Shown here piece by piece: positions 28,263-38,320 of a stretch of DNA of 64,000 nt (position 1 is its first letter; each line of letters opens with the position of its first letter). The position numbers and the translations under genes were made by a program. Source of the stretch: Nesterenkonia halophila (GTDB lineage: Bacteria > Actinomycetota > Actinomycetes > Actinomycetales > Micrococcaceae); NCBI RefSeq assembly GCF_009467795.1, contig NZ_WIAX01000013.1, forward strand, positions 1 to 64,000. The letters run 5' to 3'. The notes below the pieces were generated by a model, which saw nothing but the letters and a program-made list of their open reading frames with translations, was not told the origin of the DNA and did not search any database.

Positions 28263-28630
28263 GGGCTGCTCCTGCCGCGCGTGGACTCCGACCATGCGGG
28301 GCATCGCCGCCCCGCGAGGTGCTGTCCATCACTGCATATCACTGCCGACCGCTCCGGGGAAGGACGGAGCTCCGAGCCTGGACCGGACCCGGCACTCCTG
28401 CACAGCCTCCGATTCCTGCACAGGCGGCAGTGCGCCGCCGAGGACACGCCGGTTCCTCCCCATCGGAGACCCTCCGGCTTCTCGCGGCGCCGGGCGAGGA
28501 GAAGGATCACACCCAGCGCCGCGGGGATCCGCCGCCGGCGCGGACCGATCACCACCACTCGCCGCCGCCCGGCCTCGGCCCCTCCGGAGCGACACGGAGC
28601 CCGGCCGCCCGGCGGGAAAGGAGCAGGACC
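28263..28630. other. Divergent regulatory region between alcohol dehydrogenase and pilin genes
   Basis: About 370 bp without a gene. It holds a hairpin in the dehydrogenase leader (GCGGGGC/GCCCCGC, 28296-28315), a short direct repeat of ATCACTGC at 28328 and 28338, and the 18-bp-spaced CCTGCACAG repeats described separately. A strong ribosome-binding site (AAAGGAG) for the pilin-like gene lies at its right end. Confidence 0.6.
28377..28424 (+). promoter_or_regulatory. Direct-repeat cluster upstream of the pilin operon
   Basis: CCTGCACAG at 28397-28405 and CCTGCACAGG at 28415-28424 are exactly 18 bp apart, with a degenerate copy CCTGGACCGG at 28377-28386. Each is itself a near-palindrome (CCTG-N2-CAGG). 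Almost the same arrangement occurs upstream of the other half of the Tad locus (38193-38238). The spacer bases are partly conserved too, so a shared binding site for one regulator is likely. Confidence 0.65.
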
Positions 28631-28990
28631 ATGACCACCGCCATCACCGCCGCCCGACCCGAGGAGGCCCGAGCATCTGTCCAGGACAGCGCCTCGGCCG
28701 CCGCAGGCGCCGCCGCCCCGGCCCCCGGCCGCGCGTCGCCGTCGGCCGCCAGCGGTGCACCCGCCCCCGGATCCGCCGGCCCCGCTGAGGCCGACCGCCG
28801 GATGCGCCGCACCGACGAGGCCCGTCGTCGGGCCGAGCTCTGGGCCGAGGAGGACGGCCTCGCCACCGCCGAGTACGGCATCGTGATGCTCGCCGCCGTG
28901 GGCTTCGCCGGTCTGCTCGTGGCCGTGCTGTCCTCCGGCGAGGTCCAGGAGATGCTGCACGGCATCGTCGAGCAGGCGCTGAGCCGCTGA
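28631..28990 (+). CDS. Flp pilin-like DUF4244 protein
   Basis: A 119-residue protein. A long Ala/Pro-rich cytoplasmic-type N-terminus (about 65 residues) precedes a prepilin-like segment EEDGLATAEYGIVMLAA, where cleavage after Gly would leave Glu at +5, as in Flp pilins. One hydrophobic helix and a short tail follow. DUF4244 proteins occupy the pilin position of actinobacterial Tad loci. AAAGGAG precedes the ATG by 7 bp. First of three plus-strand genes. No prepilin peptidase is encoded in the window. Confidence 0.8.
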   Translation: MTTAITAARPEEARASVQDSASAAAGAAAPAPGRASPSAASGAPAPGSAGPAEADRRMRRTDEARRRAELWAEEDGLATAEYGIVMLAAVGFAGLLVAVLSSGEVQEMLHGIVEQALSR

Positions 28991-28995
28991 ACACT

Positions 28996-29550
28996 GTGGA
29001 CTCAGGTCAGCGCGCCACGATGGGAGTCGCGACAGGCCCTGGGGCCGCGCCTCGGGCGGGATCGTCGGCCAGTTCGCGGGCCGGCGACCCCGCTCGGCGG
29101 GCGCTCGACGCACCCGACGCAGCCAAAGTGCCCGGCCGTCGACGGCGCCCTCGGACGGCCGGCGAGCGCGGCGCGGTCACCGGCGAGTTCGCCGCCGCGC
29201 TGCCCGCGGCCGTGCTGGTGCTGATGCTGCTGATCAGCCTCGCGATGCACGGCGCCGCGCAGGTCTCGCTCGAGGACGGCGTTCGAGCGGCGGCCCGCGA
29301 GACCGCCCGGGGCGCGGACGAGGCGACGGCGATCGAGACCGCCCGGCGGGTCGCCGACGAGGAGCTCGAGGTCTCGATCACCCGCGACGGCGACTATGCC
29401 CGCGTCAGGGCCGTCCGGCCCGTGCGGATCCTCGGACTGGTGGAGGTCGCGCTGGAGCAGACCGCCGAGGCCGAGCTGCCGGTGGAGCATCTGCCGCCTG
29501 CGGAGGTGCCGGCGGGTCCGGAGCCGGCGACGAGCGGAGACGGGTCGTGA
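28996..29550 (+). CDS. tadE: TadE-like pseudopilin
   Basis: A 184-residue protein. A Gly/Arg-rich N-terminus precedes a class III prepilin segment ERGAVTGEFAAALPA, in which processing after Gly places Glu at +5. It is followed by one transmembrane helix and an extracellular domain of about 100 residues with VRAVRPVRILGLVEV. By family it is a minor pseudopilin of the Tad assembly. The start is uncertain (GTG 28996, ATG 29020 or a later GTG), as none has a clear ribosome-binding site. It is 5 bp after the pilin gene and overlaps the next gene. Confidence 0.8.
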   Translation: MDSGQRATMGVATGPGAAPRAGSSASSRAGDPARRALDAPDAAKVPGRRRRPRTAGERGAVTGEFAAALPAAVLVLMLLISLAMHGAAQVSLEDGVRAAARETARGADEATAIETARRVADEELEVSITRDGDYARVRAVRPVRILGLVEVALEQTAEAELPVEHLPPAEVPAGPEPATSGDGS

Positions 29551-29951
29551 CGCGGACGGCCGGGCGGAGGACCGGCGCCGCGAGGACGACCGTCGCAGGC
29601 GGCGACCGGGGATCCGGAACAGTGCTGGTGCTGGCCGGCGCCCTCGTGCTGCTGATGCTGCTGGCGACGGTGGTCCTGCTCGGCGCCGCCGCGACCGGCG
29701 GAGCGCGGGCCGCCCGGGCGGCCGATCTGGCGGCGCTGGCCGGCGCCGACGTCGCCCGCGGGCTGGCGCCGGGAGACCCCTGCACCGTCGCTGAACAGGT
29801 CGCTCGGCGCAATGGTGCCGAGCTCACCGCATGCCGTGTCATCGGCGCGGACGGCACGGAAGTCCTCGTCGTCGTCCGCCGCGCCGTGGGCGGCGCCGCC
29901 GGCGAGACGCTCGAGGCGACGGGCACCTCGCGCGCCGGACCGCCGCGGTGA
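29547..29951 (+). CDS. TadE/TadG-like protein (Rv3654c type)
   Basis: A 134-residue protein with the N-terminal block GDRGSGTVLVLAGALVLLML, one transmembrane helix and a small outer domain containing two cysteines. It corresponds to the secretion-neighbourhood TadE-like proteins that close actinobacterial Tad operons. The GTG start overlaps the tadE stop (GTGA). The stop is only 3 bp from the convergent tetR gene, and no terminator is visible between them. Confidence 0.75.
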   Translation: MTRTAGRRTGAARTTVAGGDRGSGTVLVLAGALVLLMLLATVVLLGAAATGGARAARAADLAALAGADVARGLAPGDPCTVAEQVARRNGAELTACRVIGADGTEVLVVVRRAVGGAAGETLEATGTSRAGPPR

Positions 29952-29954
29952 TGC

Positions 29955-30533
29955 TCAGCCGCCGACCATCCCGGGCACACCCTCGAGGGCGCGCGCGTAG
30001 ATCCGATCGCGTGCCGTGCGCGTGCCCGGGATCAGGCCGTTGAGCTCGAGGCTCACCAGACCATGGACCAGCCCCCAGATGCTCAGCGCCTGCGTCTCGA
30101 CCTCGTCCGCATCGGACGTGACGAGACACCGCGCCACCGCCTCGCGCAGCATCGCGAAGGTCGGAGCGTCCACGGGCCGGCCGCGCCCTTCATCGGGGGC
30201 CGTCGCGCCGAACATCACCTGGTAGAAGCGCGGGCTGTCGAGGGCGAACGCGCGATAGGCGACGCCGAGGCCGCGCAGGTCCTGCCACGGCGAGCCCGAC
30301 GTCGGGACGGCCGAGAGGTGCTCGCCGAACCGCTCGAAGCCCTCGGCGACGACGGCGGAGACCAGCTCCTCGCGGCCGCCGAAGAGCGAATAGATCGCCG
30401 CAGTGGACGTCTCCGCCGCCGCGGCGACGGTGCGCAGCGACACCGCAGGCGCCCCCTGGTCGGCGATCATCCGGGAGGTCTCCTCCAGCAGCCGCCGCCG
30501 GACGGTCTCGTCATGGATGCGCGGTCGAGCCAT
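29955..30533 (-). CDS. TetR-family transcriptional regulator
   Basis: A 192-residue repressor. The N-terminal helix-turn-helix includes VSLRTVAAAAETSTAAIYSLFGGREELV. The C-terminal domain contains the conserved WGLVHGLVSLELNG of the WHG/TetR_C_33 type. TAGACT (30545-30540) ends so that A of the ATG is the expected +1, and no ribosome-binding site is seen, so it is probably leaderless. A perfect palindrome in the intergenic region is the likely operator. It controls itself and the divergent membrane protein gene, by inference. Confidence 0.85.
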   Translation of the reverse strand: MARPRIHDETVRRRLLEETSRMIADQGAPAVSLRTVAAAAETSTAAIYSLFGGREELVSAVVAEGFERFGEHLSAVPTSGSPWQDLRGLGVAYRAFALDSPRFYQVMFGATAPDEGRGRPVDAPTFAMLREAVARCLVTSDADEVETQALSIWGLVHGLVSLELNGLIPGTRTARDRIYARALEGVPGMVGG

Positions 30534-30566
30534 GGCGGCAGTCTAATCCTTGACAGCAGTTTCCAC

Positions 30567-30586
30567 ACACTGTTCTATAACAGTGT
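30567..30586. promoter_or_regulatory. TetR operator palindrome and divergent promoters
   Basis: ACACTGTT-CTAT-AACAGTGT is a perfect 8-bp-arm inverted repeat in the 54 bp just upstream of tetR. It covers the -10 region of the plus-strand gene (TTGACA at 30550-30555; TATAAC at 30576-30581) and the -35 region of tetR. This is the expected geometry for repression of both genes. Confidence 0.75.
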
Positions 30587-30659
30587 CATGATTCATAGCG
30601 CCCTCGGCTCCGGTCGGAGACCCGCGCTCCGCCGCCCGAGGAGCACCCAGGGGGACAGG

Positions 30660-31070
30660 ATGCTCGACCTCTCCGAACCCGCCCGCGTCACCGCCGGGAT
30701 CGCCGTCCTCGCGGCGATCACTGTGACCACGGGCGGACATTTCCTGACCCGCGTCGTCACCGGCCGGGTGCCGACCACCGACTTCCAGACCGCCTTCTTC
30801 CGCGCCGGCCACGCCCACGCGGGCGTGCTGATCACCCTCGGGCTGGTCTGCCTGCTGCTCACCGAAGCCACTGGGCTCACCGGCGGGTGGCAGTGGCTGG
30901 CACGCACCGGCGTGCTCGTCGCCGCGATCGTCATGCCCGCCGGCTTCTTCTTCTCGGCGATGGGCACCGGCCGCACCGCCCCGAGCCGGTGGGTCGTGCT
31001 GCTCTGGACCGGGGCGGTGTTCCTCGCCGCCGGCCTGGCCGCGCTCGGCGTCGGGCTGCTGATCAGCTGA
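30660..31070 (+). CDS. Four-helix membrane protein, probably TetR-controlled
   Basis: A 136-residue integral membrane protein with four hydrophobic helices. Conserved-looking polar residues are in FFRAGHAHAGVLITLGL and MPAGFFFSAMG. I do not recognise a characterised family. The start at 30660 has AGGGGGA closely upstream. An alternative is ATG 30588, which sits exactly at the expected +1 of the promoter and would add a basic 24-residue N-terminus. The divergent tetR and shared operator suggest induction by a small molecule, possibly a lipophilic compound. This is inference. Confidence 0.6.
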   Translation: MLDLSEPARVTAGIAVLAAITVTTGGHFLTRVVTGRVPTTDFQTAFFRAGHAHAGVLITLGLVCLLLTEATGLTGGWQWLARTGVLVAAIVMPAGFFFSAMGTGRTAPSRWVVLLWTGAVFLAAGLAALGVGLLIS

Positions 31071-31128
31071 GCAGCCCCGGCGCACGCACTGCTGACCGTC
31101 GCGGAGCCCACCGTCTAGTCTCGACTCC

Positions 31129-31872
31129 ATGAGCCTCGACACCACGATCCCGCTCTACGACGACTCGCGGCTGAGCCGCGTGCTCTGCGTCGCCGCCCAC
31201 CCCGACGACCTCGAGTACGGCACCTCGGCGGCGGTCGCCCGCTGGACGGCCCGCGGGCTCCACGTCTCCTACCTGCTGCTCACCTCCGGCGAGGCGGGCA
31301 TGCGCAGCCGGGACCCGGAGGAGGTCGGCCCGCTGCGCGCCGCCGAGCAGCGGCGCGCCTGCGCGCTGGTCGGCGTCGACGACCTGCTCATCCTGGACCT
31401 GCCCGACGGCACGCTGCAGGCCGATGTGGAGACCCGTCGACGCATCGCCCGTCGCATCCGCGAAGTCCGTCCCGAACTGGTGGTCACCCAGCCCTGGGAC
31501 CTGCACGTCCCCTGGGGCCTGAACCACGCCGACCACCGGGCCGCCGGGATCGCGACCGTCGACGCCGTCCGCGATGCGGACAACCCCTGGGTCTTCCGCG
31601 ACTTGATGGAGCAGGAGCACCTGGAGCCGTGGGCGGTGTCGGAGCTGATGGTCATCGGCGCCGATCCCGCCACGCATCTCATAGACGTCGGCGGCGCGCC
31701 GCTGGAGCAGGGCATCGCCTCCCTCGAGGCGCATGAGGAGTACCTCGCCGAACTCGGCGACGCCGGGGACGTGCGGGGCATGCTCGAGTCCGCGATGGCC
31801 GAGGCAGCCGCAGCGTCCGACGTCGCCGGCCCGACCCATGCGCTCGGCGCGACGGTCCACCGAATGGCGTGA
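31129..31872 (+). CDS. PIG-L/LmbE-family deacetylase
   Basis: A 247-residue zinc-dependent N-acetyl hydrolase of the MshB/Mca type. The metal and catalytic residues are in AAHPDDLEYG, and a distal His is in WGLNHADHRAAG. Such enzymes deacetylate N-acetylglucosaminyl groups or cleave mycothiol conjugates; the substrate here is unknown. TAGTCT ends 7 bases before the ATG, there is no ribosome-binding site, and a leaderless message is likely. The HxlR gene faces it on the other strand. Confidence 0.78.
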   Translation: MSLDTTIPLYDDSRLSRVLCVAAHPDDLEYGTSAAVARWTARGLHVSYLLLTSGEAGMRSRDPEEVGPLRAAEQRRACALVGVDDLLILDLPDGTLQADVETRRRIARRIREVRPELVVTQPWDLHVPWGLNHADHRAAGIATVDAVRDADNPWVFRDLMEQEHLEPWAVSELMVIGADPATHLIDVGGAPLEQGIASLEAHEEYLAELGDAGDVRGMLESAMAEAAAASDVAGPTHALGATVHRMA

Positions 31873-31920
31873 ATCCCGGCCGGGGCCGCGAGACCGCCGC
31901 CAGCGACCATGCGCCCCGAC

Positions 31921-32268
31921 TCAGGCAGGCCGCTGAGACGCCGTCCGCGCCTCGAAGTGCTCGCCCCAGGCGTCCATGGCCGTCACGACCGGGTGCAGAC
32001 TGCGGCCCAGCTCGGTCAGCGAGTACTCCACCTTCGGCGGCACCTGCTCGTAGACGGTCCGGGCGACGACGCCGTCCTCCTCCAGCTCGCGCAGCTGGCG
32101 TGTGAGGGTCTTGCGATTGGCCCGCGGCACCAGCCGACCGAGCTCGCCGAACCGACGCGGCCCGTCGAAGAGATGCTTGACCACGGTGAGCTTCCACGCG
32201 CCGCCGAGCACCGACACCGCCACCTCCACCGGGCACACCTGACGCGCCCGCTGCACGGGAAGTCGCAT
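31921..32268 (-). CDS. HxlR-family transcriptional regulator
   Basis: A 115-residue winged-helix protein. CPVEVAVSVLGGAWKLTVVK and PRANRKTLTRQLRELEEDGV are the HxlR signature, and the single Cys near the N-terminus could sense thiol-reactive or electrophilic compounds. The start at 32268 has AAGGAGG 5 bp upstream. It is divergent from an FMN quinone reductase gene with a short dyad between them, an arrangement known for YodB/HxlR-type regulators of quinone detoxification. Confidence 0.85.
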   Translation of the reverse strand: MRLPVQRARQVCPVEVAVSVLGGAWKLTVVKHLFDGPRRFGELGRLVPRANRKTLTRQLRELEEDGVVARTVYEQVPPKVEYSLTELGRSLHPVVTAMDAWGEHFEARTASQRPA

Positions 32269-32313
32269 CCTCGCCTCCTTCTCCGCTCGCCGGCGGGACC
32301 CCGTAACCCGCAG

Positions 32314-32327
32314 GGACATTATTGTCC
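32314..32327. promoter_or_regulatory. Candidate HxlR operator
   Basis: GGACA-TTAT-TGTCC is a perfect 5-bp-arm inverted repeat in the 98 bp between the divergent regulator and reductase. A second short palindrome, GTAC-T-GTAC, follows at 32327-32335, partly overlapping a -10-like TACACT for the reductase. Confidence 0.5.
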
Positions 32328-32366
32328 GTACTGTACACTGACTCCCTGTCTGCTGACACTGGTGGC

Positions 32367-33209
32367 ATGGACACCGACCACATCACGGCATCGCCGGCGG
32401 GGCGCGCCGAGCCGGCGGCCGATCCGGCAGAGGCTCCGCGGACTGTGCTCTGGGTGAGCGCGCATCCCGAGCCCGACTCGCTGACCGGAAGTCTGCGCCG
32501 GCACGGCATGGAGGTGCTGCGCCGCCGCGGCCACACCGTCCTGGAATCCGACCTCCACGCGATGGCCTGGGACCCGGTGGTCCGAGCCGAGACGCTGGAC
32601 ACCCGTCCGGCGCCCCGGCCAGTGCAGATCACTCGGCAGGGACGGTCTGCTCAGCTGGCCGGCACCCAGCCGCCGGACGTGGCCGCCGAGCAGCAGAAGC
32701 TGCGTGGCGCCGACGCGCTCGTCGTGCAGTTCCCGCTCTGGTGGTACGGGATGCCGGCGATCCTGAAGGGCTGGTTCGACCGGGTCTTCGTCTCCGGCTT
32801 CGCCTTCGGCACGGACCCGGACACCGGTCGCCGGCTGCGCTTCGAGCAGGGCCCCTTCCGCGGCACCCGCGCGCTGGCGGCGATCACGCTCGGCGACCGA
32901 GCCGCATCGATCGGACCTCGGGGCAAGAGCGGCGAGCTGGAGGAGCTGCTCTTCGGCCTGCTCCACGGCACGTTCGCCTACACCGGGATGGACGCGCTGA
33001 GACCGTGGGCGCTGCCCAGCGCCGACTTCACCGACGAGGACAGCTGGCCGGAGGCCGCCGGATCCCTCGCCCGGCGGCTGGAAGGGCTCTTCGCCGAGGA
33101 GCCGCTCCCCTACCGCGAACAGTTCACCGGGGACTACACCGAGGAGTGGGCGCTGCGCGAGGAGATCCGCCCCGGCCAGACCGGACTGTCAGTGCATCTG
33201 CACCGCTGA
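32367..33209 (+). CDS. NAD(P)H quinone oxidoreductase, flavodoxin-like fold
   Basis: A 280-residue FMN/FAD enzyme of the NQO1/MdaB/KefF family. The N-terminal strand and phosphate-binding turn are VLWVSAHPEPDSLTGSL. The conserved core is ADALVVQFPLWWYGMPAILKGWFDRVF, split by family as QFPLWWYGMPA plus KGWFDRVF. It performs two-electron reduction of quinones or related electrophiles. The reductase is divergent from hxlR and likely de-repressed on quinone stress. No clear ribosome-binding site precedes ATG 32367; an upstream ATG (32322) lies within the presumed promoter. Confidence 0.82.
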   Translation: MDTDHITASPAGRAEPAADPAEAPRTVLWVSAHPEPDSLTGSLRRHGMEVLRRRGHTVLESDLHAMAWDPVVRAETLDTRPAPRPVQITRQGRSAQLAGTQPPDVAAEQQKLRGADALVVQFPLWWYGMPAILKGWFDRVFVSGFAFGTDPDTGRRLRFEQGPFRGTRALAAITLGDRAASIGPRGKSGELEELLFGLLHGTFAYTGMDALRPWALPSADFTDEDSWPEAAGSLARRLEGLFAEEPLPYREQFTGDYTEEWALREEIRPGQTGLSVHLHR

Positions 33210-33240
33210 CGCGCCGCCGGCGGTCCGGCATGCTGGAGTC

Positions 33241-33948
33241 ATGCGGATGTTCGCCAGCCTCGTGCCGCCCCGTCCGGCGCTCGACGACCTGGAGACGGCC
33301 CTGGCCGCGCTGCCTCCGACCGAGGAGGAGACGCCGGCCCTGCGCTGGGTGCCCGCGCACCAGCGCCACATCACGCTGGCCTTCCACGGAGACGTCCCGG
33401 ACCAGGAGACCGAGCGGATCCGCACCGAGCTGGCGACGCTCGCCTCCCTGACGCCTCCGCCGATTCTGCGGCTCGCCGGCGCCGGGATGTTCTCCGACCG
33501 GGTGCTCTGGGCCGGTGTGCAGGCTCGAGGTCCCGGGGGCGCGTCGTCTTCCGGACCGGCCGAGACGACCCGCGACCCGCTGGTGGAGCTGATGATCGCC
33601 TGCCGCGACGCCGTCTCCGAGGACGGCCGACGGCGGCGCCCGGGGGTCGGTGCTCCGGGGGCGGCGGACGCGGCCGCCTCGCCGGCATCGACCTCGTCCG
33701 TGCCGACGGAGGACGCCTGGGACTCGGACTCGCCGGCCGAGGACCCTGTGCCGCATCTGACTCTGGCCCGCTCGTCGCGGGGCGGAGTCGGCGTCGAGCA
33801 GCTCCGACGCCGCGCAGCGGAGCTCGCCGACTATACCGGCCCCGAGTGGCGGGCCGGCGCGCTGCTGCTGATGCGCTCCCAGCTCGGCGCCGGCCCTCGC
33901 GGCACGGCGCACCACACGGTGGTCGCCGAGCTGCCGCTGGCCGGCTGA
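33241..33948 (+). CDS. thpR: RNA 2',3'-cyclic phosphodiesterase (2H family)
   Basis: A 235-residue 2H phosphoesterase. The two HxTx motifs are HITL (in HQRHITLAFHG) and HLTL (in VPHLTLARSS). The N-terminus MRMFASLVPP is typical for ThpR/LigT, which open 2',3'-cyclic phosphate ends of RNA in the cytoplasm. Between the motifs is a low-complexity Ala/Gly/Ser/Asp-rich insert of about 60 residues, making it longer than the usual 180-190. GGAG lies only 2-3 bp before the ATG. It ends 31 bp from the convergent tadC. Confidence 0.85.
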   Translation: MRMFASLVPPRPALDDLETALAALPPTEEETPALRWVPAHQRHITLAFHGDVPDQETERIRTELATLASLTPPPILRLAGAGMFSDRVLWAGVQARGPGGASSSGPAETTRDPLVELMIACRDAVSEDGRRRRPGVGAPGAADAAASPASTSSVPTEDAWDSDSPAEDPVPHLTLARSSRGGVGVEQLRRRAAELADYTGPEWRAGALLLMRSQLGAGPRGTAHHTVVAELPLAG

Positions 33949-33978
33949 CCCGCCATCCGTGCCGCCGTCGCGGCGGGA

Positions 33979-34788
33979 TCACCCGCCCAGCGCGCCGTCG
34001 ACCACCTGCGGCAGCAGGCCGAGGACGACGGGCATCACGCCGAGGAGGATGAAGGCCGGCAGGAAGCAGATCCCCAGCGGCAGCACCATGCGCACGCCCA
34101 GTCGGGCCACCTGCCGTTCTGCCGCGTGCCGGCGCGCGGACCGCAGCCGGACCGCGCCGATCTGCAGCAGTTCGGTGCTGGGAGCCCCGGTGCCGTGGGC
34201 GAAGGCCAGCTGCTCGCCGAGGTCGCACAGCGGCCGGAGGCGTGAGTCCGTCTCCTCGCGACGGCCGGGGAGACGGGACAGCAATGCGCCGAGCCCGCCG
34301 CCGACGTGCCCTCGGCGCAGTTCGGCCCAGGCCTCGTCCCAGCCGGCACCGGCGGCCAGCGCTCGGTGCACGGCGCTCAGCGGCTCCGCGCCGGGCACCG
34401 TCCGGGCGAGGCGGTCCAGCGACGCCTCGATCCCGGAACCGGCCGCGAGCAGCGCGGAGACCAGATCCACCAGCAGCGCCGCATCAGGCGCCTCCCCGGG
34501 GACGGCGCCAGGGGCGTGACCGGAGGCGACGTCGGCGGTGACGCCCGACATCGAGGAGGAGGCATCCCGCGCCGAGGCCGGGCGGAGCCGTCGCCTGCGC
34601 CCGGCGAGGCCCCGGTCTGCGCCGCGTCGTCGCGCGACCCGCTCGACGGCATGGCCTCCGGCAGGACGCGCCGGAAGGACCAGCAGCCCGGCCGCCAGCC
34701 CGACCAGCAGTCCGCCGAGCATCGCAGCCGATGCAGCAGGGCGGAGGGCGGCGAGCATCGCCGGCGACTCGAAGAGCACGTCACCCAT
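33979..34788 (-). CDS. tadC: TadC-like type II/IV secretion inner-membrane protein
   Basis: A 269-residue T2SSF-domain protein. Two N-terminal transmembrane helices and a cytoplasmic segment with ALLVDLVSALLAAGSGIEASL precede two C-terminal helices in LPLGICFLPAFILLGVMPVV. With TadB it forms the inner-membrane platform driven by the TadA ATPase. The start overlaps the tadB stop by 8 bp. It is last in the minus-strand Tad operon; in other actinobacteria the pilin and TadE genes would follow directly, but here they are on the opposite strand 4 kb away. Confidence 0.82.
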   Translation of the reverse strand: MGDVLFESPAMLAALRPAASAAMLGGLLVGLAAGLLVLPARPAGGHAVERVARRRGADRGLAGRRRRLRPASARDASSSMSGVTADVASGHAPGAVPGEAPDAALLVDLVSALLAAGSGIEASLDRLARTVPGAEPLSAVHRALAAGAGWDEAWAELRRGHVGGGLGALLSRLPGRREETDSRLRPLCDLGEQLAFAHGTGAPSTELLQIGAVRLRSARRHAAERQVARLGVRMVLPLGICFLPAFILLGVMPVVLGLLPQVVDGALGG

Positions 34789-35602
34789 GCGGCATCGCCG
34801 CCCGCATCATTCCCCGGCCCCACCACCATCCGGCGGCCAGCAGCGCCGTGCCGAGCACCAGACAGCCAGATCCGACGCCGCCATCGAACAGCAGTGAGAA
34901 GGCGTCGGCGCCCATGACCTGCCCCAGTCCGACGCCGGCGAGCGGCAGCAGCACCAGGATCAGCTGGGTGGTCTGCGGCCCGGCGACCGCTGTGCGGATC
35001 GAGGCATGCAGCTCGGCGTCCTCCTCGGCCGCGGCGGCCAGCCGACGGGCGAGCTCGGCCAGCGGAGCTCCGGTCTCTTCGGACAGGGCGACCGCCCCGC
35101 GCAGCCGGTCCAGGACCTCGCCCAACGCCCGTGCCCCGTCCGGGGACAGCCCGAGGGCCGCGGCCTGGTCCCGTGTTCTGCGACCGGCGCGGCGCAGCCC
35201 GACCGCGGCCCCGTCGCCTGCGGCCTCGGCGCGAGCGACGTCGGCACAGACCGCCGCCAGCGGATGCGACTCCCCGAGCCGTCCCCAGTGGTCGCGGAGG
35301 TCGCCCCAGGCCTGGCCGGGCGAGCGCCCGGACTGCAGCAGCGCGGCCAGCTGACGCAGCAGCTCGGCGACGTCGCGGCGCAGGGTCTCGCCGGAGGACC
35401 GCCGGCCCTGCCGCCGTCCGAGCCGCGAGCGCACGCGCCGCGCGATCCCCGACCGGGCACGGCTCGACGCACCCGAGATCCCCGCCGAGGCACGGTGACG
35501 GGCCGCCGGCGGCGTCGGAATCAGCATCACCACGGCGACGAGCGCGCAGCCTCCGCCGAGCAACAGCATCGCGCCGCGGCCGACGCCGGGGAGCTCATCC
35601 AT
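34781..35602 (-). CDS. tadB: TadB-like type II/IV secretion inner-membrane protein
   Basis: A 273-residue protein with a T2SSF domain (ELLRQLAALLQSGRSPGQAW, then LSEETGAPLAELARRLAAAA) and terminal transmembrane helices. Partner of TadC. The start at 35602 has GGAG 7 bp upstream and overlaps the tadA stop by 8 bp; the longer frame is rejected. Confidence 0.82.
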   Translation of the reverse strand: MDELPGVGRGAMLLLGGGCALVAVVMLIPTPPAARHRASAGISGASSRARSGIARRVRSRLGRRQGRRSSGETLRRDVAELLRQLAALLQSGRSPGQAWGDLRDHWGRLGESHPLAAVCADVARAEAAGDGAAVGLRRAGRRTRDQAAALGLSPDGARALGEVLDRLRGAVALSEETGAPLAELARRLAAAAEEDAELHASIRTAVAGPQTTQLILVLLPLAGVGLGQVMGADAFSLLFDGGVGSGCLVLGTALLAAGWWWGRGMMRAAMPHG

Positions 35603-36860
35603 CCGTCTCCGCCTTCCGCTCTCCGCACCACCGGACGGCGTCCTGCCCATCGCGCGTGTCAGATTCGTCGGGCTCGTCGCCGACCAGCTTCTGCCACCCC
35701 GGTCCGCGACGCAGAACCTCCCCGTCCTGACGCAGCACCGGGGTCATGCCCAGCTTCCCGTCGGCCCAGACGACCTGCGAGGCCGCCGCGGGCCGTCGGT
35801 GCGGACCGCGCCGCTCCACGTGGATGACCAGATCCAGAGCAGCCGCGGCCTGCATCGCCACCGTCTGCGGCGGCATCTCCGCCAGCGCCCCCATGGCCTC
35901 CAACCGCGCCGGCACCGCCTCCGGCGAATTCGCGTGGACCGTGCCGCCGGCGCCGCGATGGCCGGTGTTCATCGCCGCCAGGAAGTCGCGCAGCTCGGCG
36001 CCGCGGCACTCGCCGACGATCAGCCGGTCCGGGCGCATGCGCAGCGTCTGACGGACCAGCTGGCCCATCTCCACCGCTCCGGCTCCTTCGGCGTTTCCCC
36101 GCCGGGTCTGCAGATGCACGACATGCGGGTGCTCGGGGTGCAGCTCGGCGGAGTCCTCGACGATCACCAGACGCTCATCCGCCGGGCATTCGGCCAGCAT
36201 CGCCGCCAGCAGCGCGGTCTTCCCCGCCCCGGTGCCGCCGGAGATCAGGCAGTTCAACCGTCTGCGGACCACCGCGCGGATCAGTCGCAGCCAGTCCTCG
36301 CGGTGGGACCAGTCCGCCGCGAGGTCCTCCATCCGGGCGACGGCGCCGCGGGCCACGCGCACCGAGAGCATCGTGCCTTCCACGGCCACCGGTGGGATGA
36401 CGGCATGGATGCGGCAGTCGCCGAGGCGCCCGTCGGCGCAGGGGCGTCCTTCGTCCAGTCGCCCTCCCGAGAGGGCGATGAGCCGCCGGGCCAGCGAGCG
36501 CGCCTGCTCCTCGCCCTCCAGCGCGGCCGCCCGACGCCGGAGCCCATCGGCTCCGTCGGTCCAGATGCGCGCCCTGCCGTCTACCAGCACGTCGGTGACG
36601 CCGGGCTCGTCGACGTACCGCTGCAGCGGCCCCAGACCGACCAGCTCGTCGCGGAGTCGACCGACGAGCCGTCGAGTGGTGGCCGCACCCAGCGCCAGCC
36701 CTGCACGGCGCACCTGCTCGGCGATGCGCGCGGCGGTGATCGGCTCGTCCCCCGCCGCCAGCGCCTCACGCAGCTCGCGCAGAGTCTCGGCGTCGGGCAG
36801 ATCCTCCGTGAGGAGCCGCTGCGCGGCGCGGTCCTCCGGTCCGACGGCGCGTTCACTCAT
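35595..36860 (-). CDS. tadA: TadA/CpaF-type secretion ATPase
   Basis: A 421-residue ATPase that powers Flp pilus assembly. The N-terminal domain includes LGPLQRYVDEPGVTDVLVDG. The core shows Walker A GGTGAGKTALL, an Asp box in IVEDSAELHPEHP, Walker B-like RPDRLIVGECRG and a His box in TGHRGAGGTVHAN. The ending is an unusually acidic tail. The start at 36860 overlaps the upstream gene stop by 8 bp. All four genes on this strand overlap, so it is a single tight operon. Confidence 0.92.
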   Translation of the reverse strand: MSERAVGPEDRAAQRLLTEDLPDAETLRELREALAAGDEPITAARIAEQVRRAGLALGAATTRRLVGRLRDELVGLGPLQRYVDEPGVTDVLVDGRARIWTDGADGLRRRAAALEGEEQARSLARRLIALSGGRLDEGRPCADGRLGDCRIHAVIPPVAVEGTMLSVRVARGAVARMEDLAADWSHREDWLRLIRAVVRRRLNCLISGGTGAGKTALLAAMLAECPADERLVIVEDSAELHPEHPHVVHLQTRRGNAEGAGAVEMGQLVRQTLRMRPDRLIVGECRGAELRDFLAAMNTGHRGAGGTVHANSPEAVPARLEAMGALAEMPPQTVAMQAAAALDLVIHVERRGPHRRPAAASQVVWADGKLGMTPVLRQDGEVLRRGPGWQKLVGDEPDESDTRDGQDAVRWCGERKAETDG

Positions 36861-38103
36861 CGCCCACCGCCGCGGCCCGCAGTCCGGTTCCGAGGTCGCC
36901 CGGCTCTGCCGCGCCGACAGACTCCAGCAGCGCCGCGGCGAAGGCCTCGCCGCGGCGCGTCCGGAGCAGCTCATAGGCCTCCGCGAGATCGTCGGCCCGC
37001 CGCAGCCACTTCTGCTCGGGCAGGTCGGCGGCGACAGGCGGCCCGAGAGCCGCCAGATCCTCCCGGCACCAGCCCGGGCGGGCGGCCCCGGAGGACACCA
37101 CCGCCCAGGGGATCTGCGGCCGGGCGGCGAGCATCTCGGCGGCCCCGCGCATTCCGCGCGCCGAGGCCGAGCTGACCAACAGGCCGGCGTCCCAGGCGGC
37201 GTCGCCGCGCGAGGCCTCGGCGGCGCGCCCCGGATCGCCGGGAGTCCCGAGGGCGCATCCGCGGCCGGCGTCGACGACGACCAGGTCGAACCCCCGGCGC
37301 CCGGCGGCGAGCACACGGTCGATCAGACCGGACGACGGCTCCTGCGTCGGCGCGCCGGTGAGCACATGGACCCCCTCCACTTCGGGCAGCGCCGAGGCGA
37401 GATGCCCCGGGGCGAGCGCACCTTCTGTGGCCGCGATCCCCGTCCAGTCCAGCAGGGCCTCGGCGTCGGCCTCTGCGGAGAGCAGGTCGCGCAGTCCGGA
37501 GCCGGGCGTCGGATCCGCGTCGACGAGCAGAGCCCGCTCGTCGCGAGCCGCCGCCTCGGCGGAGGCCAGGAATGCGACAGTGCTGGCGCCCACGCCGCCG
37601 TGGGAACCGGCCACCAGCACCGTCCGGCCCGGAAGCCGGTCCGTCGCCCGGGCGGCCAGATGCTCGCCGAGCCAGCTCTCGGCCGCGGGCAGCGGCACCG
37701 GAACCGCCGCGGGCCTCCCGGCGGCGGCCTGCCAATGCGCCGCATCTCCGCGACCGACCAGCAGCAGCCCGTCGGCCGCGGCTCCGGCGGTGGCGGCCGA
37801 CTCCGGCGAGCACAGGGCCGCAGCCCAGCGTCCCCCGGGACCGACGGCGCGCTGCCAGCCCTCGGGCCAGGTCTCCCGCGCATCCGTGCGCGCGCCCACG
37901 ACGGCGGCGGTCAGCGTGATCTCGTCGCGCAGCGCCTCGTCAGAGGTGACCAGCAGGATCGCCGGTTCGGCGGGCTCGGCGGATTCCTCGGGGTCTGCGC
38001 GCGGCCCGCGGCGACGAAGCAGCGCGGCCCCCGCGGCGTCCTGCGCGGCGCCGGCCCTCGGGCGGCTCCTCCGCTGCGCTATGTCCTCGATGCGTGGTCC
38101 CAT
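36853..38103 (-). CDS. CpaE/TadZ-like ATPase (septum-site-determining type)
   Basis: A 416-residue MinD/ParA-superfamily protein. An N-terminal receiver-like domain (ILLVTSDEALRDEITL) is followed by a deviant Walker A region VAGSHGGVGASTVAFL and a Walker B-like FDLVVVDAGRG. The lysine of a normal P-loop end (GKST) is Ala-Ser-Thr here; the deviant-motif Lys (KGG) is His, so ATP binding may be weak. By family TadZ/CpaE localises the Tad machine to the pole. The mycobacterial counterpart (Rv3660c, Ssd) affects septum formation. The start at 38103 has GGAG 5 bp upstream; direct repeats lie about 90 bp before it. Confidence 0.78.
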   Translation of the reverse strand: MGPRIEDIAQRRSRPRAGAAQDAAGAALLRRRGPRADPEESAEPAEPAILLVTSDEALRDEITLTAAVVGARTDARETWPEGWQRAVGPGGRWAAALCSPESAATAGAAADGLLLVGRGDAAHWQAAAGRPAAVPVPLPAAESWLGEHLAARATDRLPGRTVLVAGSHGGVGASTVAFLASAEAAARDERALLVDADPTPGSGLRDLLSAEADAEALLDWTGIAATEGALAPGHLASALPEVEGVHVLTGAPTQEPSSGLIDRVLAAGRRGFDLVVVDAGRGCALGTPGDPGRAAEASRGDAAWDAGLLVSSASARGMRGAAEMLAARPQIPWAVVSSGAARPGWCREDLAALGPPVAADLPEQKWLRRADDLAEAYELLRTRRGEAFAAALLESVGAAEPGDLGTGLRAAAVGDE

Positions 38104-38192
38104 GGCTCCACCGTGGCCGCGCCGAGCCGAGCGGGGAAGCGCGTCGCCGCCCGGTGTGGAGGACTCGGCGCGTCGCCGTCGCCCTGCGGCCA

Positions 38193-38238
38193 CCTGTGCA
38201 GGAACAGAAGGCTGTGCAGGGGCTGGAGCCTGTGCAGG
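38193..38238 (-). promoter_or_regulatory. Triple direct-repeat cluster upstream of the tadA operon
   Basis: On the minus strand CCTGCACAG(G) begins at 38238, 38220 and 38202, three copies spaced exactly 18 bp. The last two copies and their spacer align with the pair at 28397-28424, with about 28 of 32 bases identical. They lie 90 bp upstream of the operon start, a normal distance for an activator or upstream repressor site. Confidence 0.7.
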
Positions 38239-38320
38239 ACTCCCACCCGGACAGCGCCCGCAGCCCGCTCTCGAGACGCTGACGGCACAGTCGAGCACCG
38301 ACGGCGATCGGCCGAAAGGC

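Follow-up and report, generated by a model that had tools for sequence, protein, structure and literature searches.

The first 64,000 nucleotides of contig NZ_WIAX01000013.1 of Nesterenkonia halophila (assembly GCF_009467795.1), hereafter called the window, carry a Tad pilus locus that is split into two halves, and in front of each half stands a small cluster of direct repeats. Very likely, these repeats belong to an element that activates the transcription of a natural-competence regulon, i.e. of genes for DNA uptake and recombination, and make up its upstream part. The repeats of the window are one form of a two-part element, in which the last CCTGCACAG copy of each cluster is the upstream site, here called A, and a second and different site, B, follows downstream. 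Our confidence is high for the regulon and low for any named protein that would read it. The comparison covers the assembly that holds the window (2.19 Mb, 65.5% complete; G000), 30 Nesterenkonia genomes, among them the sister of the window species (G021), and other genomes of the family.

The sequence CCTGCACAG occurs at 28397 and 28415 on the forward strand, ahead of the DUF4244 pilin operon, and on the reverse strand with 5' ends at 38238, 38220 and 38202, ahead of the cpaE/tadA/tadB/tadC operon, with a constant spacing of 18 bp in both clusters. A 32-bp stretch common to the clusters has 28 identities by eye, the mismatches being three in the spacer and one in the tail. The copies, their positions and spacing and this match are as a preliminary description of the window gave them, and its suggestion that both Tad transcripts would be co-expressed through one regulatory element in common is supported by the comparison given below. 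Pairs of CCTGCACAG at this spacing with at most three mismatches number three in the window against 0.07 expected, and none of 100 shuffles reached three, while single copies with at most one mismatch show no enrichment there (24 against 19.3 expected), so the signal lies in the exact copies and their spacing. The 18-bp spacing, which had been taken as the core of the site, is not kept in the genus. Exact pairs are found in two of the 30 genomes only (G000 and G021). The window assembly has them at these three places alone, within the two Tad promoters, together with one pair with a single mismatch ahead of a nudC-like gene (L004), and in the sister genome they also precede nudC-like and WXG-like genes. 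With up to two mismatches allowed there are matches in 23 of the 30 genomes, yet the reversed pattern matches too, and the six such loci from other genomes that were examined (L043-L048) are all inside open reading frames (ORFs). Extra A-like copies elsewhere in the genus are spaced by 12 bp (G003, G006, G024) or 16 bp (G016) and many promoters have none; the spacing of the extra copies varies between species, whereas the distance from A to B recurs.

Site B, which the preliminary description had passed over, follows the last copy of each promoter at an end-to-end distance of 40 bp, and is preceded by GACACGCCG in the pilin promoter and by GACGCGCCG in the cpaE promoter. On the forward strand the Tad pilin promoter has an extra site-A copy, CTCCTGCACAG, at 28395..28405, site A, TTCCTGCACAG, at 28413..28423, in the same place relative to B as the A sites of the genus, the element GACACGCCG, which recurs in sites of the genus, at 28443..28451, and site B, TTCCTCCCCAT, at 28453..28463. 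The promoter of the cpaE/tad operon reads, on the reverse strand, two extra copies, GTCCTGCACAG at 38230..38240 and CCCCTGCACAG at 38212..38222, then site A, TTCCTGCACAG, at 38194..38204, the element GACGCGCCG at 38166..38174 and site B, GTCCTCCACAC, at 38154..38164. Tentative -10 elements were picked by eye 38 bp past site B, AAGGAT at 28502..28507 (forward strand; about the distance of TAGCCT in the comEA promoters) and CACGGT at 38110..38115 (reverse strand), both of them weak matches; as a -10, CACGGT would perhaps give a leaderless or nearly leaderless cpaE transcript.

The layout is clearest in the comEA promoters, where, read by eye, site A is followed after 38-41 bp by site B, after about 38 bp by a -10 of the type TAGCCT and after about 9 bp by the ATG, the short last distance suggesting leaderless transcripts. 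The boxes share one strand and stand near -55 and -95, and no -35 element was visible on inspection of these promoters. Site A is TTTTCCCCAG in many species (34 of the 49 matches of the degenerate pattern described below, by eye), TTCCTCCACAG in some, and TTCCTGCACAG in the window species and G021; YTCCTGCACAG is the form of these two and of Micrococcus terreus. Site B is CTCTCCACAG and variants of it (YTCCMCAG-like), on the same strand as A. The distance between the sites is 38-41 bp in most Nesterenkonia promoters with the element and 28 bp in two cpaE promoters (G001, G029), and 40 bp and the 28 bp also seen in M. terreus differ by about one helical turn. The preliminary description had pointed to a near-palindrome, CCTG-N2-CAGG, in the window repeat. 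The common genus forms TTTTCCCCAG and CTCTCCACAG (the latter with its variants) are both non-palindromic, and we therefore reject a palindromic site and regard the near-palindrome as accidental.

The genes behind the element point to competence. The degenerate pattern YTYNCCMCAGN{28,32}NYTCCMCAG has 49 matches in 16 of the 30 genus genomes, and the reversed pattern, used as control, has none. All of the 42 sites that were read are intergenic by our own gene caller, and the other seven are upstream of tad genes that had already been located. Uptake and recombination genes make up 31 of the 49 (tad 11, cpaB/SAF 6, ssb 4, yraN 4, recA 3, comF-like 2, comEA 1), and the remaining 18 are nuclease-like genes (8), DUF4192 genes (4), WXG100 or WXG100-like genes (4), one unknown gene and one cluster of DnaA boxes. 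In G020 the yraN gene is followed by the gene of a ComM/YifB protein and then by that of a DprA protein. When the genomes are pooled, one element is thus found upstream of many transformation genes, and no single genome shows all members by the strict patterns. Families were searched for one example of each gene group and the remaining members were named by likeness by eye; the name HflX is taken from Pfam GTPase domains, and cpaE/ssd-like, TadE-like, rpsF and its ssb, the PstB-like ABC ATPase, parA/parB/parS-like, RecA in L343, WXG100 in L339 and rimP for G021:C127 were named by their position or by likeness by eye. In the searched libraries no family matches the nuclease-like group or one of the WXG100-like proteins: L121, L177 and L338 match nothing in Pfam and NCBIfam, and L340 has only a weak match to Pfam REase_MTES_1575, below the cut-off. 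By eye this recurrent boxed gene (L112, L121, L129, L177, L336, L338, L340) codes for about 220-350 aa and is AbiEi/endonuclease-like. The WXG100 or WXG100-like genes with the element are those at L126, L140, L145 and L139.

The form YTCCTGCACAG could be followed through two whole assemblies. In that of the window it occurs 13 times, against once for the reversed control; seven of these rows, at six promoters, have a site B (cpaB, a gene for an M23 peptidase, comEA, both tad operons and a 337-aa nuclease-like gene), five boxes without B precede rpsF-ssb, dnaB, dnaG, rimP and hflX, and one more is inside dinB. G021 has 20 occurrences (reversed control 2), ten rows of them with a B-like site at seven or eight promoters: ssb, yraN, comEA, M23, cpaB, two tad and a WXG-like gene with an array of four copies, where the B-like site is only 25 bp on. 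Another eight rows have no B (rpsF, nudC-like twice, an unknown 478-aa gene, hflX, the ABC ATPase, dnaB and rimP) and two more are in genes. Site B follows YTCCTGCACAG at 39-40 bp at cpaB, comEA, M23 and the tad operons in both genomes and at ssb and yraN in G021, the spacing at cpaB and at one comEA having been read by eye. No transcription factor gene was seen to adjoin the boxed cpaB gene of the genus.

Two of the boxed gene types deserve a separate remark. The four CCTGCACAG copies of G021 (L040:3972-4034) stand before the WXG-like gene and a gene for an alpha/beta-hydrolase, a hint of type VII secretion tied to competence. The M23 peptidase gene (L161, L180, L342) is boxed in two genera, with an rpsB-like neighbour in G000, and might encode a lysin that acts on the cell wall during competence.

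A profile trained on 36 sites, with those of tad and comEA excluded, was applied to upstream regions of at most 480 bp, the threshold being the 99th percentile of 3000 random windows. It found 20 of 22 comEA, 25 of 28 DUF4244 and 23 of 29 cpaE regions above the threshold, and none of the 79 reverse complements. The DUF4244 set leaves out G009 (no match) and G014 (broken match), and the cpaE set G028 (contig edge). Left out of the comEA set are G014, G017 and G018, which have no gene call, G021 and G028, with split or edge matches, and G001, G006 and G007, where the start was wrongly called.

The element is also present in other genera. Over 80 genomes of the family, the pattern YTCCTGCACAGN{19,34}YCCACAG, which allows spacings of 26-41 bp, gave 21 rows in eight genomes; the M. 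terreus genome is present twice (G032, G302), so these are 16 distinct sites in seven distinct genomes, and the reversed control gave one row. The spacing is 28 bp in 13 of the 16 sites, 29 bp in two and 27 bp in one, and spacing and position are thus kept across species, at 38-41 bp for most of the Nesterenkonia promoters and mostly at 28 bp elsewhere. The sites come from M. terreus, from five of the 11 genomes of one other genus of the family (g14) and, as a single probable chance site, from a third genus. The genes behind them are of the same kinds as in Nesterenkonia: nuclease-like (3), comEA (2), DUF4192 (2), one each of yraN, tadA, recA, ssb, M23 and WXG100, two unknown genes and the probable chance site; three of the 16 sites are inside an ORF by our gene caller. 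The comEA promoter of M. terreus has CTCCTGCACAG, a box identical to that of the window, and then GGTCCACAG 28 bp on. The form TTTTCCCCAG is nearly confined to the genus, with six rows in five genomes outside it against two rows for the reversed pattern. The comEA loci of named genomes were tested for pairs of boxes on one strand, 27-29 or 38-41 bp apart and with a score of at least 15; such pairs were present at 13 of 31 other actinobacterial, eight of 15 Nesterenkonia and none of 32 non-actinobacterial loci; on the reverse strands the counts were none, one of 15 and none. Garicola koreensis (L229), where the region upstream of comEA equals that of G009, was excluded from the other genera, which gives 13 of 31 instead of 14 of 32.

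Several observations weigh against a competence regulon or limit how far it reaches. The strict pattern detects the element in only 16 of the 30 genus genomes, the YTCCTGCACAG form is present in eight of 80 family genomes (M. terreus counted twice), and a stricter pattern of the TTTTCCCCAG form in 19 of 295, 14 of which are Nesterenkonia. At comEA, 18 of the 31 other actinobacterial loci show no pair, more than half, so that presence is not general, and nine of the 13 paired loci are from Actinomyces and therefore not independent. The held-out test was failed by six of 29 cpaE, three of 28 DUF4244 and two of 22 comEA regions, and only two comEA, six DUF4244 and seven cpaE regions beat the best random window, i.e. 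the profile separates sets and not each single promoter. The -10 candidates of both window promoters are poor, and activation rather than repression is suggested by position only. The B-less boxes, finally, precede the housekeeping genes rpsF, dnaG, dnaB, rimP and hflX, and part of the boxed set is thus not about uptake. The preliminary description had named a motif spread over the genome without linkage to pilus genes as the result that would speak against it, and this was half borne out: B-less boxes do precede rpsF-ssb, dnaG, dnaB, rimP, hflX and nudC-like genes, but the set of genes as a whole is far from random.

The position of the boxes at roughly -55 and -95 is activator-like, and from this we infer an activator that acts on direct repeats. 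One protein would bind both sites, A and B being direct repeats at some distance upstream of a promoter without a visible -35, and the bound protein would recruit RNA polymerase, so that pilus (Tad), uptake-channel and single-stranded-DNA processing genes would be switched on together. In the window species the extra A copies at 18 bp may raise occupancy at the two Tad promoters, where most product would be needed.

Known competence regulons, those of ComK in Bacillus, SigX in streptococci and CRP with Sxy/TfoX in Haemophilus and Vibrio (introduced in PMC8467076), likewise have one short site before genes of the pilus, comEA/EC, dprA, ssb and recA types. The A-B element differs from them in its phylum, its sequence and its two same-strand boxes 28-29 or 38-41 bp apart, and its gene set has the Tad/Flp pilus instead of the com pseudopilus and no known regulator. 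Closer at hand is Micrococcus luteus, where, according to the passages we draw on, transformation depends on the Flp pilus (PMC4322843), the knock-out of a CpaB-like gene cuts it 10^4-fold (PMC8467076) and the activation of comEA/EC is termed necessary (PMC12849477). The Flp/Tad, comEA/EC and CpaB genes, and a regulated comEA/EC promoter, are thus common to both, whereas the seen passages of these three papers hold no promoter motif or box-defined regulon, unlike the boxed set described here. Two of them describe the control of competence in Actinobacteria as little known (PMC8467076, PMC12849477, in the parts consulted), and the one of 2026 states there that upstream signals and regulatory nodes are still to be identified (PMC12849477). 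Among the open-access papers listed in our searches, judged by title and the opening of the abstract, we found no published description of the A-B element, and no open-access paper that treats DUF4192 together with competence.

Which protein reads the element is a separate matter. One tentative candidate, on balance unlikely, is DnaA; the boxes would then be DnaA boxes or weak variants of them, and competence and replication genes would be switched on as active DnaA rises. The consensus of the DnaA box is a nonamer of the type TTWTNCACA. A forward box stands 44-48 or 55-57 bp before the dnaG start in 19 of 29 Nesterenkonia genomes (by eye; one of them is TTTTCACAG; G014 was left out of the 30), and at this place species exchange TTATCCACAG, which we take to be a perfect DnaA box, TTTTCCCCAG, CTCTCCACAG and TCCTGCACAG, i.e. 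forms of DnaA type and of competence type. B-less boxes stand ahead of dnaB and rpsF-ssb, and among the matches of the degenerate pattern there is one cluster of DnaA boxes, in a region of the window genome with parS-like palindromes. Many B sites and several dnaG boxes have the TCCACA core of DnaA boxes. However, the window site A, as TCCTGCACA, and the common TTTTCCCCA each depart from the consensus at one fixed position, and this departure is conserved and specific to the species; neither of them fits the TTWTNCACA nonamer, and some B sites and dnaG boxes come closer. Within the cluster of DnaA boxes in the window genome TTATCCACA occurs twice and TGCACA is absent, with one TTCTGCACAG about 360 bp away (by eye). 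Orientation is constant in the uptake promoters that were read, with fixed spacing, and is not so at dnaG, where the box is reversed in six of the 29 promoters (L353-L381) and absent from that place in four (by eye). The cluster itself is in an intergenic region of 2.3 kb (L397:2846-5138, G000:C18) that precedes a ParB-like gene and by eye holds several parS-like palindromes.

Another candidate, which we consider quite doubtful, is a small HTH_17 (excisionase/BldC-like) protein orthologous to Mlut_14660 of M. luteus, which would form head-to-tail oligomers on the direct repeats. A likely ortholog is encoded in the window genome (G000:C19:156612-156827; L190), divergent from a second CpaB-like gene (named by eye), just as Mlut_14660 is from Mlut_14650. 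In M. luteus, by the part of PMC8467076 considered here, a missense mutation in this protein, R64W, reproduced the altered phenotype of a comEA/EC reporter and a knock-out of it was unobtainable, but a different mutation close to the gene had no effect on the reporter. BldC of Streptomyces, a reader of HTH_17/MerR-like type, binds direct repeats head to tail, in varying number and at about -50 to -80 upstream, the latter figure from one promoter (PMC5859096, as far as consulted). Its repeats are however of 9 bp and its half-site is AT-rich (AATTxxxxC), unlike A and B (PMC5859096, same passages); the boxes hold no AATT and are spaced by 18, 28 or 40 bp, and 28 and 40 are not multiples of 9. The recognition-helix stretch of the protein differs from MSQTRALI in five of the seven genomes with A sites of the type CCTSCACAG, but two of the seven (G005, G010) keep it, and relatedness can explain the pattern. 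In the other genomes read, 18 of 20 have MSQTRALI and two differ by one residue, the set covering the genus except G002 and G009, with no match in G028. As an observation on its own, the intergenic region between the HTH_17 gene and the CpaB-like gene contains TTTTCCACAG and TCATCCACAA boxes, 28 bp apart.

The preliminary description had proposed a regulator dedicated to the Tad pilus that reads the 18-bp repeats, and this we hold to be very improbable, even though the exact pairs of the window genome stand only at the two Tad promoters. The element is not restricted to tad promoters, since a box with site B also precedes comEA, ssb, yraN-comM-dprA, cpaB, recA and other genes, and the exact pairs of G021 also precede genes outside the Tad locus; a strictly Tad-only site is refuted by these. 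A neutral tandem repeat or a small mobile element as the nature of these copies has next to no probability, for although the number of tandem copies varies (2, 3, 2, 4), their cores are identical and their spacers are not, the distance to B recurs, and the conservation across genera with linkage to the same kinds of gene refutes it.

The Tad genes of the window are arranged as two convergent operons. The forward one begins with the DUF4244 pilin-like gene at 28631..28990 (Pfam PF14029, E 4.2e-21), followed by a TadE-like ORF at 28996..29550 (start perhaps 29128), named by position and without a Pfam match, and a small ORF at 29547..29951 (start perhaps 29622), also without a Pfam match. The reverse one begins with the cpaE/ssd-like gene at 36853..38103, named by position with no Pfam match, and continues with a tadA-like ATPase gene (T2SSE by Pfam) at 35595..36860, a tadB-like gene (T2SSF by Pfam, below the cut-off) at 34781..35602 and a tadC-like gene (T2SSF by Pfam) at 33979..34788. 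Between the two halves, at 29955-33948, there are a gene assigned to TetR by Pfam and genes that by eye look PIG-L-like, HxlR-like and 2'-5' RNA ligase-like. In G020 (L133, L076) the DUF4244 pilin gene seems to be split, and a recombinase-like gene follows the promoter.

In its widest form, which is speculative and rather improbable as a whole, there would be an undescribed actinobacterial competence regulon with direct repeats resembling DnaA boxes, that ties DNA uptake (Tad, ComEA/EC, ComF), the protection of strands and their recombination (a second SSB, DprA, RecA), the priming of replication (dnaG, dnaB) and a putative arm for the lysis of neighbours (WXG100 type VII substrates, the M23 peptidase) to a single signal linked to replication, for which DnaA itself is a possibility. 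The narrower reading is that natural transformation in Nesterenkonia and its Micrococcus-type relatives probably has its missing control site in the A-B element. A conserved promoter element of this kind predicts a regulon and names unstudied members of it, the DUF4192, nuclease-like, WXG100 and M23 proteins and the second SSB. It also offers a defined DNA bait with which the regulator could be pulled down, and existing comEA/EC reporter strains allow it to be tested.

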